Part shown: piece by piece, positions 14,589 to 20,154 of the stretch
How positions within the stretch are numbered: position 1 is the stretch's first letter
How the letters are laid out: every line of letters starts with the position of its first letter
DNA from: Bacteroidales bacterium
GTDB lineage: Bacteria; Bacteroidota; Bacteroidia; Bacteroidales; UBA932
Assembly (NCBI GenBank): GCA_021443515.1
Contig: JABUTT010000194.1
Coordinates: 1 to 38,019 of the forward strand
DNA: 38,019 nt
Direction of reading: 5' to 3'
The notes under the pieces: model-generated
The model's database searches: none
What the model was told of the DNA's origin: nothing
What the model saw: the letters and a program-made list of their open reading frames with translations, nothing else
Translations under genes and position numbers: made by a program

Positions 14589-14620
14589 CAAATATAACAA
14601 TATTTGTCGATTATTGCAAT
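14589..14620 (-). promoter_or_regulatory. Bacteroides-type promoter for dnaX
   Basis: Reading the minus strand: -33 ATTG at 14620-14617, 20-bp spacer, -7 box TATATTTG at 14596-14589. The ATG of dnaX follows 18 bp downstream. The -33 element lies within the last codons of the upstream gene (stop at 14611). The -7 box overlaps one arm of a 7-bp inverted repeat, CAAATAT-AACA-ATATTTG, at 14589-14606. Confidence 0.7.
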
Positions 14621-15348
14621 GATGAAAGGATGGAGTATATCTGCAGGTAATATTCTTTCTTTGCATGGGCGTTGAAACCAGCGACGGCTTCCATGGATTC
14701 TTCGGCCGCTGAGACCTTCAAAGGAGCAAGAGACATGGCGCCACCACCTATGCCGGTAAAGTAAAGTCCGGAAATTATGGAATAGGTCGCAACACCTATG
14801 ACAAGAAGTTCACACACAAGATGTTCAACTCCCTTGAGAGGCTCTCCCGAGTAGAAATGGCCGCAGCCCGGAATTATAGAAAGAAGCATTGCGGCGATTT
14901 CGCTTCTCTGACGCAGTTTTGTATTTGAGAGTATGGTTTGGATTGTGTTGGATTCCATCTCGGGTATGATGCCAAGTGACATAGCCTCAGAGAGTTGCGC
15001 TTCGAATTCCTCATATTGTCCGGAAAGATAGCCATAGCAGAGTTTTGATATCGTCAGGGCCTTTCTGTCTCTTTCGGACAGCCCGAACATAGGAGCCCTT
15101 TTTAGCGTTTCGTAAGCCTCCTTGTTCTTGCCTTCTTTGGAATAGCACTCACTCTTTCCGAGTATGGCGACAATGCTTTCCTCGGGGGTCGGGTTATCCC
15201 ACAATGCACGCTCAAACACAGCGGCGGCTACACCCCACTGACCCGCTCCCATCAAGGCATCCGCCCTAATGAGCCACTCCCTCGTTGAGCCGAAACTAAT
15301 TGAAGATATCGTGCAGAGGAATATGGATATTAAAAAGAATCGTCGCAT
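14611..15348 (-). CDS. Exported TPR-like membrane protein with C-terminal PG-x-G motif, function unknown
   Basis: A 245-aa protein with a signal peptide (MRRFFLISIFLCTISSISFG), a helical TPR-like region at about 20-140 (WLIRADALMGAGQWGVAAAVFERALWD, ILGKSECYSKEGKNKEAYETL) and a C-terminal hydrophobic part with the motif SIIPGCGHFYSGEPLKG (about 154-170) followed by one or two membrane segments (LVCELLVIGVATYSIISGLY). The upstream neighbour has the same architecture and motif, so the two are probably diverged tandem duplicates. Its start lies 53 bp inside that neighbour in another frame; this start is kept because it gives the signal peptide. The motif resembles the PG-G-Y-G signature of TM2 and DUF5683 membrane domains. 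I know no characterised function. Confidence 0.75.
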   Translation of the reverse strand: MRRFFLISIFLCTISSISFGSTREWLIRADALMGAGQWGVAAAVFERALWDNPTPEESIVAILGKSECYSKEGKNKEAYETLKRAPMFGLSERDRKALTISKLCYGYLSGQYEEFEAQLSEAMSLGIIPEMESNTIQTILSNTKLRQRSEIAAMLLSIIPGCGHFYSGEPLKGVEHLVCELLVIGVATYSIISGLYFTGIGGGAMSLAPLKVSAAEESMEAVAGFNAHAKKEYYLQIYSILSSLQ

Positions 15349-16327
15349 TGTGTGATTCGTTTATAGCCGTGTCAATTACCGACACGGAAACATAACTTCC
15401 GTATATGTTGCCTATGTAAAAAAGGCCTGTGAGTGTTGCGAGAACTATTGTTCTCCAGTCGCCGCCTCCCCTTTTAATCCAACTTTCCGCCGTAAATCCG
15501 GCAGTTGTTCCGACTATGAGAAATGAAGACAGGCCGCTCAAAAAATCCCCTGCATACATCTTTCCCGAGCCGGGAATTATCGCCGACATTATGGCCGCGC
15601 CCACTGGAGATTTCTTCTTGTATTTAAGTTTTGCGTCATATATAGTCTCAAGAGACTTCTCATACTCCCCGAGTTCCTTATGAGTAAAGTCCGAGGAGGC
15701 GTTTTTATAGCCCTCCAAATCATTCTCGAGCAGACAGAGACCGGCTTCCTGAAGACTCTGCAATTCGACAAGTTCACTCGGAGCACGGAGAGGTTTCAAT
15801 GCCTCACGAGCCTCCTGCGTCCTTCCGAGAGTGGCAAGCGAAGCTGCGCTGTACAGTATGCTCGGGGCGTAGATTGGAGAGAGTTCGGGGACTTTTGAGA
15901 ACCAGGTTATTGCGGTGTCGAGTTGGAGCACGCTATAAGCGGCAAAACCTTTCAGAAACGAAAGAGTGTCGCTCGGAGAATACAGGTTTTCGGCAAAAAG
16001 AAGGTTCACCGCATCAGCCTTCAAGTCACTCCTAACGAGGTATTTCACGAAATTGAAATCCTCTGAAGCAGACATTGTTCCGTAATTTTCCATATCCGAC
16101 GGAACTAACGCACAGGTCGGGATAGGGTAAATCGGGTCGAAGGAAATCTTCGTTCTGTTATGTGTCATTATGACTCCACGAGAAGCGATTCTGTTCGTGG
16201 ACATTGTGTAGTCAAAGAGAGAAAATGGTCCCCTTATCGATGGGTAAGGCTTTTGAGCAGAGAGCGACAAACAAAGAAAGACCGTCATTGCGGCGGTTAT
16301 TATTCTTTTATGTTCTCCCGTCCTCAT
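15296..16327 (-). CDS. Exported TPR-like membrane protein with PG-x-G motif, paralogue of the next gene
   Basis: A 343-aa protein with an N-terminal signal peptide (IITAAMTVFLCLSLSAQ), a domain rich in Pro and Ser (about 30-90), helical repeats of TPR type at about 90-230 (TLSFLKGFAAYSVLQLDTAITWF, SILYSAASLATLGRTQEAREAL, AGLCLLENDLEGYKNAS) and a membrane part with SAIIPGSGKMYAGDFLSG, then two to three hydrophobic segments (FLIVGTTAGFTAES, VLATLTGLFYIGNIYGSYVSV). The start at 16327 lies directly next to the stop of the LolA-like gene. Shared motif, shared order of parts and adjacency argue for duplication with the 245-aa protein downstream, with which it overlaps by 53 bp. Function is unknown; an envelope role is inferred from neighbours. 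Confidence 0.75.
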   Translation of the reverse strand: MRTGEHKRIITAAMTVFLCLSLSAQKPYPSIRGPFSLFDYTMSTNRIASRGVIMTHNRTKISFDPIYPIPTCALVPSDMENYGTMSASEDFNFVKYLVRSDLKADAVNLLFAENLYSPSDTLSFLKGFAAYSVLQLDTAITWFSKVPELSPIYAPSILYSAASLATLGRTQEAREALKPLRAPSELVELQSLQEAGLCLLENDLEGYKNASSDFTHKELGEYEKSLETIYDAKLKYKKKSPVGAAIMSAIIPGSGKMYAGDFLSGLSSFLIVGTTAGFTAESWIKRGGGDWRTIVLATLTGLFYIGNIYGSYVSVSVIDTAINESHNATILFNIHIPLHDIFN

Positions 16328-17092
16328 CTATTTTTTGGAATTCTTCAACGCTTTTTGAATCTCTTTGATGTCTATAGGCTTGGCATCAGCGGGAACCACA
16401 AAATCAAACTCCGGAGCAGGCTCGTTCACCTTGATGTTCGAATACAGGTCCAGACGCACCGTAGAGTCACCCTTTTCCATAAAATAGGTAATTTCCGTCA
16501 CCCTCCTCGGGAAAATGAAATTGCCTGTCGCCTCATAGTTTGAGAGGTAGGTTTTTGTAAGCACCCTGCCCTTTTTATCGTAGTAGATTGCGCAGATTGG
16601 CAGGTAATCCTTGTACACAACCTCTACTTTGGCGCATTTGTTTGAGGATATTTTTGAAATGAAGGTCCTCTTAAGGTAGCCATCCTCCTTCTTTGAATCC
16701 GAAATCACGAATTCATATTGCGAAATCCCGAGATCCTCACCCATACCGTTGGCAAAAATGTAGAGAAGTTCATCCTTTGCCTCCATTATGCCCTGAACAT
16801 CGTTCAAGACCTCATTCGTCGCAGGAGAATACAGTTTTACCACACCGAGGCGGGACACGAGAAAATACATATCCGCATCATCATAATAAGAATGTACCAC
16901 AAGGCTTCCATCCGACTTGCAGAACACGTCTTTTTTGGATATGGTTTTCTTTCCCTTGGCAAGGACCTTGGATTCCACCGAGGCACTCACCTGTCTTTGA
17001 GCGGAACACAGGCTCTCGCTCAAGAAAAACAACGCTATAAGAAAAAACAAAGGGCGGACAATTAAGGCCGCCCTTATTCTGTTATCAGTCAT
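16328..17092 (-). CDS. LolA-like periplasmic protein
   Basis: A 254-aa exported protein with a signal peptide (ALIVRPLFFLIALFFLSESLCSA) and no other membrane segment. The body is beta-rich and ends with the pattern YLSNYEATGNFIFPRRVTEI...VRLDLYSNIKVNEPAPEFDF, which resembles the outer-membrane lipoprotein-sorting (LolA/LolB) fold family as seen in Bacteroidota (COG2834). In that family a half-barrel carries lipid-modified substrates across the periplasm. It may instead be one of several uncharacterised family members and not the general lipoprotein carrier. It begins 3 bp after the TM2 gene and abuts the first PG-x-G protein gene, so the four form one envelope block upstream of dnaX. Confidence 0.6.
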   Translation of the reverse strand: MTDNRIRAALIVRPLFFLIALFFLSESLCSAQRQVSASVESKVLAKGKKTISKKDVFCKSDGSLVVHSYYDDADMYFLVSRLGVVKLYSPATNEVLNDVQGIMEAKDELLYIFANGMGEDLGISQYEFVISDSKKEDGYLKRTFISKISSNKCAKVEVVYKDYLPICAIYYDKKGRVLTKTYLSNYEATGNFIFPRRVTEITYFMEKGDSTVRLDLYSNIKVNEPAPEFDFVVPADAKPIDIKEIQKALKNSKK

Positions 17093-17095
17093 GGA

Positions 17096-17479
17096 TTAAG
17101 CCCACATGATGAATTTAGGGTTTCCCATATACTTTGAACCGCCACCCTGAGCAATGTCAATGATGTACATGATAAGGTCAACGAGCGGAATGATACCGAA
17201 GATACCACCGACTGTAAGGATGTACCAAAGGATGTTAAGGTTGTTTGTACCGAGAACAACACGATGGATAGCAGCCCATCCAAGGAAAATGTTGCAAATG
17301 ATAGTAACCACCTTTCTTCCTGTTGCATCAAGTGCAGGAAGTGCTGCAGGAGCCTCTACAACGAGTTCTGCCTCCTCAAAAAGAGAGTCAATTGAAGCAT
17401 CGTTAACCTCATAAGAAGCAGCGTTGGCTGCGAATGAGAATGCTGCCAGCGAAACGATAAATGTAATAAACTTTTTCAT
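17096..17479 (-). CDS. TM2-domain membrane protein
   Basis: A 127-aa protein. The start at 17479 is chosen because it begins a signal peptide (MKKFITFIVSLAAFSFAANA) and lies just behind a strong promoter; the open frame extends upstream without such features. A short acidic linker (NDASIDSLFEEAELVVEAP) is followed by two membrane segments of TM2 type at about 58-110: ICNIFLGWAAIHRVVLG, then LNILWYILTVGGIFGIIPLVDLIMYI. The TM2 signature here is G-x3-H-R-x2-L-G and the final Asp before the second helix end. The C-terminus is short (KYMGNPKFIMWA). TM2 proteins are common but mostly uncharacterised. It is the first gene of the run leading to dnaX. Confidence 0.85.
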   Translation of the reverse strand: MKKFITFIVSLAAFSFAANAASYEVNDASIDSLFEEAELVVEAPAALPALDATGRKVVTIICNIFLGWAAIHRVVLGTNNLNILWYILTVGGIFGIIPLVDLIMYIIDIAQGGGSKYMGNPKFIMWA

Positions 17480-17506: not shown

Positions 17507-17537
17507 CAAAGTTATAACATTTTTGATACCTGACAAT
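17507..17537 (-). promoter_or_regulatory. Bacteroides-type promoter for the TM2 gene operon
   Basis: On the minus strand: -33 ATTG at 17537-17534, a 19-bp spacer, and the -7 box TAACTTTG at 17514-17507. The ATG at 17479 lies 27 bp downstream. Both boxes and the spacing fit the known consensus TTTG-N19-TAnnTTTG, making this one of the clearest promoters in the window. It separates the upstream methyltransferase group from the TM2 group. Confidence 0.8.
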
Positions 17538-18184: not shown

Positions 18185-19438
18185 TTACAAATAGATTAGC
18201 GTTGACATATTTGAAAAAACCTCGTTTGCCACACTCTGAACCTCTTCAGCTGTGACTGCTCCCACCTTGAGTGCCGCCACATTGTCGCTCGGGACACGAC
18301 CATAGCAGGTAAGACTCTTCGCCATACTCAGGGCCTGAGCCTCGCCACTGTCCTCCGCCACGGCAAGTTGGCCGAGAAGTTGCTTCTTTGCAGCTTTAAG
18401 AGCTTTCTCACTCAACGGTTTTCTTTGAAGTTTTGCTATTTCCCTGTGAACCGCCTTTATGCATTTTGAGAGATGTTCTTCCTCGCAACCGAGAATAATG
18501 GACACGATGCCCGTGTCGGCATATTGGGTGTAGTTGCATTCCACATTATACACCCATCCATATCTCTCCCTCAGGGATGAATTCAGTCTGGAGTTCATTG
18601 CAGGACCTCCAAGAATGTTGAAAAGAAGCGTGGCAGCAATACGTTTTCTCTCCTCGTAGAGCGAAGGAGCGTATGAGCCTATAATGCAATTCACGAGATT
18701 ATTGTCCTTGTTGACCTTCTCGAAAAAAGGCTTGTAGTACTTGAAAATATGGACGTCCTTAACCTTTGGGAGAGCTTCTGCAACAGGATCACAACCCTCC
18801 GGATGCGCCGTAGAATAATACTTTCGGGTGAGTCTCAACACCAGCCTCTCAAGATATTCCTCCTTGTAAGGAGCCACGATGACAAAGGCCGTGTTTGCCG
18901 GCACGAAAAACTCTTTCCTGAAAGCTACGAGCTGTTCCGAAGTGATTGACCTCACGCTTTCCTCAGTTCCGAGAATGCGCTTTGATAGAGGGTGGCCAGC
19001 AAAAAGTTTTTCTTCAAAAACATCATATATGTCCTCCGAAGGCGAATCCCTATATGTGTCGATTTCGTCTATCACCACGCCTTTTTCCTTCTCCACCTCA
19101 GCAGAAGGGAAGGTTGCATCGGTTGCAAGTTCAAAGAGAAGGTCTGCCGCCTTGAGTATATCATCCTTGAGAACTGTGGCATGGAAGGTAATGTCTTCCT
19201 TGCTTGTGTAGGCATTGAGTTCTCCCCCAAGCGAATCGAGGTAAGAACTTATTTTTGAGGCGGATTTGCGGGTAGTTCCCTTGAATATGGTATGTTCCAC
19301 AAAGTGCGCAAGGCCCTCGGGATATTTGCCATCTTCAACAACCGTTCCCGACCTTACGCTCAATGCAGTGTAGGCAACTTTGCCATAACTCTGTCTGACC
19401 GCGTATTTTATTCCCTCGGGGGAAATTCCTGATTTCAT
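18185..19438 (-). CDS. M16 family zinc peptidase (processing-peptidase type)
   Basis: A 417-aa protein of two M16 half-domains. The inverted zinc motif HFVEH is at 45-49, with the third ligand Glu expected at E125 in VVIDEIDTYRDSP, 76 residues later, the spacing seen in pitrilysin. The second half (about 230-417) lacks a zinc site, as usual, and contains the substrate-side pattern SSLREREYG-like (NSSLRERYGWVYNVECNY). It has no signal peptide, so it is probably cytoplasmic, or exported in an unrecognised way. Bacterial single-copy M16B peptidases of this size resemble the mitochondrial processing peptidase beta subunit; substrates are unknown. It overlaps the upstream 239-aa gene by four bases and precedes the O-methyltransferase gene by 3 bp. 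Confidence 0.92.
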   Translation of the reverse strand: MKSGISPEGIKYAVRQSYGKVAYTALSVRSGTVVEDGKYPEGLAHFVEHTIFKGTTRKSASKISSYLDSLGGELNAYTSKEDITFHATVLKDDILKAADLLFELATDATFPSAEVEKEKGVVIDEIDTYRDSPSEDIYDVFEEKLFAGHPLSKRILGTEESVRSITSEQLVAFRKEFFVPANTAFVIVAPYKEEYLERLVLRLTRKYYSTAHPEGCDPVAEALPKVKDVHIFKYYKPFFEKVNKDNNLVNCIIGSYAPSLYEERKRIAATLLFNILGGPAMNSRLNSSLRERYGWVYNVECNYTQYADTGIVSIILGCEEEHLSKCIKAVHREIAKLQRKPLSEKALKAAKKQLLGQLAVAEDSGEAQALSMAKSLTCYGRVPSDNVAALKVGAVTAEEVQSVANEVFSNMSTLIYL

Positions 19439-20154
19439 TTCTTTTTCGGAATCTTCTTATCCTTATACATATAGAGAGTATGGTCGGAGCATCCTATGTA
19501 CATCTTGTAGGAATGTGAAACTCCATAAGTGGGGTTTGACGGACAGATATCATAGACGACCACCTTGTCGGGGTCAGCCGATTCCATTGCCTCGATAATT
19601 TTACTACTGTCGGTGATGATCTCGGCAGTTCTCGGAATTTTGTTGAACGATGCAAGGGTGGCGAGATTTCCGTAGGCATAACTATCCCTTTCAGTGGCCT
19701 TGCGAATAAATTCCTGCATAAATTCCACAAGAATTGGGAAGAAATAGACATTCTGCTCTGAAAGTTCCTCGGCATTGCCCACGGGAACGGTCACTATATT
19801 TATATTATGGTCCGTGCCCGTCTTGAAAGCATCCAGAACTCTGATACCGCTTCCTTCCTCGCCGGGATATTTCGATATGTTCGTCACAACAAAATAGTAT
19901 TCCGGCTTGCCTTTCAAGGTTTGATACTCTCCGTATGTACAGAATTCATAGGGAGAAATCTCCCACCTCGTATCCACCGCATCACGAAGTACCTTGTCGT
20001 AGAAAATATTGCCTGTAAGTACGAATTTCGTGGTTTTCTCCATAAAATCCGCAATCTCGTGGCGCTTTGTATAAACCTTTGCAGCAGTCTGTCCAAAAGC
20101 CGACAAATCTATCATTGCACATGCAACGCAAAGTGCGAATAAGGTCTTTTTCAT
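19435..20154 (-). CDS. Exported protein of unknown function
   Basis: A 239-aa protein with a signal peptide (MKKTLFALCVACAMIDLSAF, cleavage probably at AFG-QTA). The mature part mixes strands and helices (TTKFVLTGNIFYDKVLRDAVDTRWEI, YYFVVTNISKYP, VYFFPILVEFMQEFIRKATERDSYAYGNL) with no further membrane segment, and ends in a lysine-rich tail (KDKKIPKKK). I do not recognise the family. The pattern of a W-x-I-S-x-Y-E-F strand is often seen in Bacteroidota exported proteins of unknown role. It is the first gene of a unit with the M16 peptidase (4-bp ATGA overlap) and has its own promoter 56 bp upstream. Confidence 0.8.
   Translation of the reverse strand: MKKTLFALCVACAMIDLSAFGQTAAKVYTKRHEIADFMEKTTKFVLTGNIFYDKVLRDAVDTRWEISPYEFCTYGEYQTLKGKPEYYFVVTNISKYPGEEGSGIRVLDAFKTGTDHNINIVTVPVGNAEELSEQNVYFFPILVEFMQEFIRKATERDSYAYGNLATLASFNKIPRTAEIITDSSKIIEAMESADPDKVVVYDICPSNPTYGVSHSYKMYIGCSDHTLYMYKDKKIPKKK

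Follow-up and report, generated by a model that had tools for sequence, protein, structure and literature searches.

Many bacteria have YidD (PF01809), a little-understood protein with a reported role in membrane insertion in E. coli. TM2 (PF05154) and DUF5683 (PF18935) are families of membrane proteins with hairpins, the former with a glycine-rich turn carrying GxxxYxG between hydrophobic helices, the latter with an SAxxPGxGxxY turn followed by hydrophobic helices. On the carrier side, the LolA3 proteins of Porphyromonas gingivalis and F. johnsoniae are Bacteroidota LolA paralogues with no assigned cargo in the two reports that describe them (PMC13103446, PMC11885536). The P. gingivalis protein (28 kDa) is close in size to the LolA-like protein of the present locus, a likeness by description, and the accessible parts of these reports mention no YidD or TPR neighbour for Bacteroidota LolA3 (PMC11885536, PMC13103446). 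A study of lipocone proteins describes a cpCone-1 / LolA-like / 4TM operon, in which a LolA-like gene accompanies a lipid-enzyme-like membrane protein (PMC12419801). Its combination of a LolA-like carrier with a membrane protein for which a lipid role is proposed recalls the present locus by analogy only, and the membrane partner there is unlike those found here. A search of open-access literature turned up no paper on DUF5683, nor any on YidD with TPR or LolA proteins as a system.

The window, which is the whole stretch of 38,019 nucleotides that was analysed, contains two adjacent genes for the proteins P343 and P245, preceded by genes for a LolA-like and a TM2-domain protein (Table 1). Both reading frames of the twin genes and their overlap, noted in the initial annotation, were confirmed on the minus strand. 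That annotation knew no described function for the twins; none was found in the open-access literature either, and as far as could be found there the P343/P245 cassette is undescribed. With slightly less than even confidence, the cassette is read here as belonging to an undescribed envelope machine in which an exported YidD would sit on an overlap-tied TPR-hairpin heteromer, and in which YidD would have been absorbed stepwise, down to a single helix, in one Bacteroidales branch. The window alone reveals neither the YidD gene of the operon and its relic in P343 nor how widely the overlap is conserved.

Table 1. Features of the cassette in the window, from upstream to downstream.
Feature	Position	Strand	Remark
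Bacteroidota-type promoter-like site TTG-N19-TAACTTTG	17507-17536	-	27 bp before TM2 start codon
TM2-domain protein, 127 aa, signal peptide; cassette gene 1	17096-17479	-	PF05154
LolA-like periplasmic protein, 254 aa, PF17131-related	16328-17092	-	Directly abuts P343
P343: signal peptide, putative YidD-derived relic, TPR domain (~87-235), PGSG hairpin, TM helix 262-286, long helix 291-342	15296-16327	-	First copy of tandem
P343 residues 30-53 (SIRGPFSLFDYTMSTNRIASRGVI): putative relic of last helix of exported YidD, fused to P343	16169-16240	-	Profile comparison, graded series, tree
P343 motif SAIIPGSGKMYAGD, residues 248-261	15545-15586	-	S248, P252, G253, G255, Y258, G260 invariant (46 sequences)
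Dual-coding overlap, 53 bp: encodes ILFNIHIPLHDIFN (P343 tail) and MRRFFLISIFLCTISS (P245 signal peptide)	15296-15348	-	Frame relation shared by 56/56 measured related loci
P245: signal peptide, TPR domain (~22-142), PGCG hairpin, TM helix 170-192, long helix 196-244	14611-15348	-	Second copy of tandem
P245 motif SIIPGCGHFYSGEP, residues 157-170	14839-14880	-	Sequence and profile comparison

By sequence comparison, P343 and P245 are true paralogues, with a likeness above chance. They share 26% identity over 205 aa (BLASTP, E 6e-7), P245 as sole query recovers P343 in a whole-genome search (E 9.5e-4), and their full-length profiles match with Prob 98.7 and E 3e-16. The C-terminal parts, compared profile to profile on their own, also match (Prob 98, E 1.8e-13), in agreement with the tandem paralogy that had been proposed. 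The order of signal peptide, TPR helices and hairpin, likewise claimed for both proteins, is borne out by AlphaFold2 models of the single chains, which reach a pLDDT of 87.5 and a pTM of 0.76 for P343 (alignment of 46 sequences) and 93.4 and 0.81 for P245 (45 sequences). Common to both is a TPR solenoid leading through a short helix, a PGxG turn and a second short helix into the TM helix and a final helix of ~50 residues. The short helices span residues 241-250 and 254-258 around the PGSG turn of P343, and 150-156 and 162-166 around the PGCG turn of P245; the TM and long helices are those of Table 1. The long hydrophobic helix of each protein is probably transmembrane, as read from the sequence by eye. 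Assignment of the solenoids to the TPR class draws on Pfam and on structure matches of the models: TPR_19 is found in P245 (E 3.6e-5) and in 26 of 45 P245 orthologues, and the best Foldseek matches of both models in the PDB are TPR structures, but with E > 0.01. A PDB sequence search with P343, P245 and the P343 profile returned generic TPR matches or none, and the hairpin of the models had no convincing Foldseek match in the PDB, TPR folds alone being recovered.

The gene two places upstream of the twins is a TM2 protein, as the initial annotation had said (36 bits, E 8e-9, over the Pfam cut-off), and the further idea that its hairpin is kin to those of the twins and of DUF5683 found weak support. 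Pfam TM2 reaches 5/46 members of the P343 family (best E 3e-5) and 2/45 of the P245 family (best E 1e-5); a few members thus come near the family, and no PF05154 match is listed for the window proteins themselves (cut-off 27.9 bits). P343 and P245 share the glycine-rich turn of TM2, but have no HR motif, and set profile to profile against the TM2 proteins of the operon they give no significant match (Prob ~3), which leaves a common origin of the two kinds of hairpin unsupported. The likeness to DUF5683 is better (Prob 92-94, E ~1e-7), but is confined to 23-43 columns around PGxGxxY; the DUF5683 proteins compared are ~190-210 aa long without TPR, and the window genome holds a separate DUF5683 protein. 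Against the PF18935 cut-off of 26.7 bits, P343 scores 13.1 bits and P245 is not listed. Since both proteins fall below both cut-offs and the operon TM2 profiles go unmatched, they are filed under neither family. YidD, also named as a family in which the C-terminal regions might find a match, does not match there; its relevance is that of a lost neighbour gene.

The overlap between the twin genes is the largest between neighbouring genes of the window. It is present in all 56 related loci in which both gene starts could be set, with lengths of 32-80 bp (median 62) that are always 2 mod 3; starts were chosen by signal-peptide score, which may shift single lengths by a few codons and leaves the frame relation unaffected. 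The shared bases encode the P343 tail NIHIPLR (consensus ILYNIHIPLR) and the P245 signal-peptide segment SIFLC (consensus IFLC-A-FS). The window has TTTAATATCCATATTCCTCTG here, which gives FNIHIPL in one frame and, shifted by one base, LISIFLC in the next. If the P245 start were placed 3' of the P343 stop codon, P245 would be left without its signal peptide. As a stretch that encodes the tail of one protein and the secretion signal of another in several families, it is an example of overlapping coding that has been preserved unusually well.

Relatives of P343 were taken from 80 public-genome contigs as well as from the genus and family of the window genome, whose relatives are rumen and gut Bacteroidales MAGs, including Candidatus Cryptobacteroides and Rikenellaceae. 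The P343 family is patchy: it is found in 19/61 genomes of the genus and, at E < 1e-9, in ~43 of the 148 class genomes of good quality, where adjacent pairs are frequent. Nearly all of ~55 Bacteroidales-type loci (L035-L089) keep the order TM2, LolA-like, TPR-hairpin 1, TPR-hairpin 2, including those of Prolixibacteraceae (L080), Marinilabilia rubra (L081) and Marinifilaceae (L084). One cassette gene is missing in truncated contigs and in a few loci, such as TM2 in L085. Genes flanking the cassette vary, the widely recurrent neighbours being the operon's own families only. Conservation of the four-gene order in relatives, and with it the suggestion of an envelope operon shared with the LolA-like protein, received strong support, and TM2, LolA-like, P343 and P245 form a conserved cassette of what appears to be a widespread bacterial envelope operon. 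DnaX, LptB, FtsY, M16 and methyltransferase neighbours were rejected as parts of the system, not being kept in relatives. The promoter-like site in front of the cassette is a consensus match only, picked after the sequence was seen.

The LolA-like call itself is weak for the window protein alone, which scores 22.8 bits against PF17131 (LolA_like), under the cut-off of 30. It gains from the family, as 11/25 orthologues match PF17131 at E <= 0.01 (best E 1.7e-6) and 6 match DUF4292 at the same threshold. In the window genome, a 93.6% complete draft, the cassette gene is the only PF17131 match. The same draft has no match to PF03548 (LolA) or to PF16584 (LolA_2), a profile insensitive in the genus, where it matches in 22/61 genomes and mostly weakly.

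In many relatives, the LolA-like and TPR-hairpin 1 genes are ~350-480 bp apart, and the small gene between them, whose product has a signal peptide, is a clear YidD. Three intact examples score 61.7-66.1 bits against the PF01809 cut-off of 27 (E 6e-17 to 2e-18), and the stop codon overlaps the next start by 1-4 bp at many junctions. This partner is a full member of the family, with the PSCSxY core and YG..KG...DRLxRC, but differs from canonical YidD by its signal peptide and an extra tail. YidD with TPR-hairpin pairs extends beyond Bacteroidota, judging by the labels under which the MAGs were deposited: Poribacteria (L090), Chlorobi (L099), Deltaproteobacteria (L100, L109), Desulfuromonadales (L101) and Thermodesulfobacteriota (L102). 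In L090, a LolA-type protein lies in front, judged by position and size; next to the deltaproteobacterial pairs, LolA-like and TM2 genes are both lacking. Natural YidD-TPR-hairpin fusions occur in L097 and L108.

Closer to the window, this gene erodes. A YidD that has lost its N-terminal half and PSCS core is still a separate gene in 11 loci, is fused to the front of P343 in 7, and is down to its last helix in 17 rows, the window included; a few of these 17 were classed as relic or absent for want of a profile match and then read by eye. A separate YidD was sought at the window locus and is not there, the only copy found being intact, canonical-looking and elsewhere in the genome (C20). The C-x-Y-x-P-S-C-S-x-Y core is absent from residues 1-87 of window P343, which appears to keep the shrunken YidD as a fused piece of ~24 residues, the last helix only, without cysteines. 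The last helix can be followed from YGLFKGVLCTTDRLMRCNRVALAGK (L056, intact) through GFFPALFATADRITRSSGRIGIAGR (L036, fused) and VRGVFSFTDSLMRNSRIGMAGR (L054) to IRGPFSLFDYTMSTNRIASRG in the window. By profile, the relic aligns with the C-terminal YidD helix YG..KG...DRLxRC, its cysteine lost; the match to intact YidD is in register (Prob 85, E 7e-6, score 39), and an enlarged YidD set gives Prob 88, E 3e-6 and a score of 38. When the YidD-derived part is left out of the tree, the intact-YidD loci are split from all others at a branch supported at 100, and the window groups with L061 (Rikenellaceae), L062, L077, L079 and L082 (support 98). Because intact YidD is widespread outside the window's branch, loss rather than gain is the probable direction. 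Several transitions between the eroded, fused and relic states are required on the tree, which means that neither fusion nor shrinkage happened only once.

Descent of P343 residues 30-53 from YidD is supported by these comparisons, and membership of P343 in the YidD family is not claimed. The resemblance could instead be due to chance, with an N-terminal extension of independent origin in P343: only ~24 residues align, the cysteines are gone, and the nearest relics as single sequences match YidD weakly (E 0.04-0.6, the window protein not among the matches). With single sequences so weak, it is the profile and the graded series that carry the case for the relic, and both speak against coincidence. 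Against the enlarged YidD set, the score of 38 compares with at most 15 when the columns of the relic alignment are shuffled (199 shuffles), graded intermediates in this position match YidD with E 1e-15 to 1e-7, natural fusions exist and relics cluster on the tree, which makes an independent origin quite improbable. Another reading takes the cassette to be in decay in the lineage of the window, with its proteins left as remnants of little function. Consistent with this are the small draft genome (1.63 Mb), a window P245 without the TYxG part of the second motif present in the consensus, a window TM2 with HRVVLG where relatives have HRxYxG, and the lack of a separate YidD at the locus. Yet none of the four frames is broken, no invariant residue is missing from P343, and order, overlap and relic persist among relatives at 27-45% identity, so that decay is unlikely.

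As for function, P343 and P245 may be TPR-hairpin subunits of an inner-membrane-anchored, periplasm-facing complex that hands hydrophobic cargo to the LolA-like carrier, a full model that is tentative and rather less than even in probability. Computation shows the paralogy, the fold layout, the kept gene order and overlap, YidD as a partner in relatives, and its stepwise erosion and fusion into P343 in the window's branch. The cassette would comprise TM2, LolA-like, exported YidD, TPR-hairpin 1 and TPR-hairpin 2. Translation coupled by the overlap would yield a P343/P245 heteromer in fixed ratio, anchored in the inner membrane by the C-terminal TM helices, with the TPR domains as periplasmic docking surfaces. 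The exported YidD would dock on TPR-hairpin 1, and in the window the relic helix may still do so; the erosion series hints at the part of YidD on which this contact depends. A lipoprotein, a lipid or a newly exported membrane segment could then pass to the LolA-like protein. Nearly as likely as such cargo transfer, and doubtful in its own right, is a role on the periplasmic side in the assembly of membrane or outer-membrane proteins, comparable to YidD with YidC, in which the TPR-hairpin pair would take exported hydrophobic segments and aid their folding or insertion, the LolA-like protein being one substrate chaperone that carries no lipid. The lost partner is a YidD family member, and membrane insertion is the role reported for E. 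coli YidD; the structural neighbours of the TPR domains include the adaptors LapB, NlpI and BamD, at weak E-values. The deltaproteobacterial pairs without an adjoining LolA gene also fit an assembly role, and because neither LolA-like nor TM2 genes adjoin them, LolA cargo transfer cannot be the core function everywhere. The LolA-like gene is nearly constant in Bacteroidota loci, however, and the signal peptide implies that operon YidD should act on the membrane side opposite to that of canonical YidD, both of which weigh against assembly. An accessory role in type IX secretion or gliding, like that of LolA1/LolB1 in Flavobacterium johnsoniae, is suggested by a report in which LolA proteins of that species serve type IX lipoproteins (PMC11885536). 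SprA occurs in 142/148 class genomes against ~43/148 for the P343 family, the pair is also present in contigs filed under other phyla, and SprA (PF14349) was not found in the window genome, which disfavours this role, nor in G363, a strong P343 carrier; it is very improbable.

The cargo-transfer model, if the LolA-like partner indeed carries the cargo of the complex, would bear on additional lipoprotein or lipid routes in Bacteroidota. Exported YidD and its fixed partners offer a concrete, testable set of candidate proteins that YidD may act with.

Several further features were observed in and around these loci. In the window, positions 19435-20154 of the minus strand encode a 239-aa protein with a likely signal peptide that overlaps the M16 peptidase gene by 4 bp; no family scores above cut-off, and a La-domain match is weak (E 0.055). 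Two distinct TPR-hairpin systems adjoin on opposite strands of one Bacteroidales contig (L086:967-7456), and more than one pair is also present in the class genomes G397, G422, G426, G445 and G449. At the TM2 position upstream, L091 (5389-5832) and 12 other loci carry a different small protein with a signal peptide and two hydrophobic segments (WWGCVLGIIGILIVYLVTDKD); this type occurs in Bacteroidota loci outside Bacteroidales and in a Chlorobi contig, and L091 has two such genes in tandem. The TPR-hairpin proteins of the non-Bacteroidota contigs L100, L101, L102 and L109 end in tails of alternating hydrophobic residues (VTLNYDF, VTLEYPFW) that resemble DUF5683 tails (VGLSLNYKF) and may represent a shared terminal strand.
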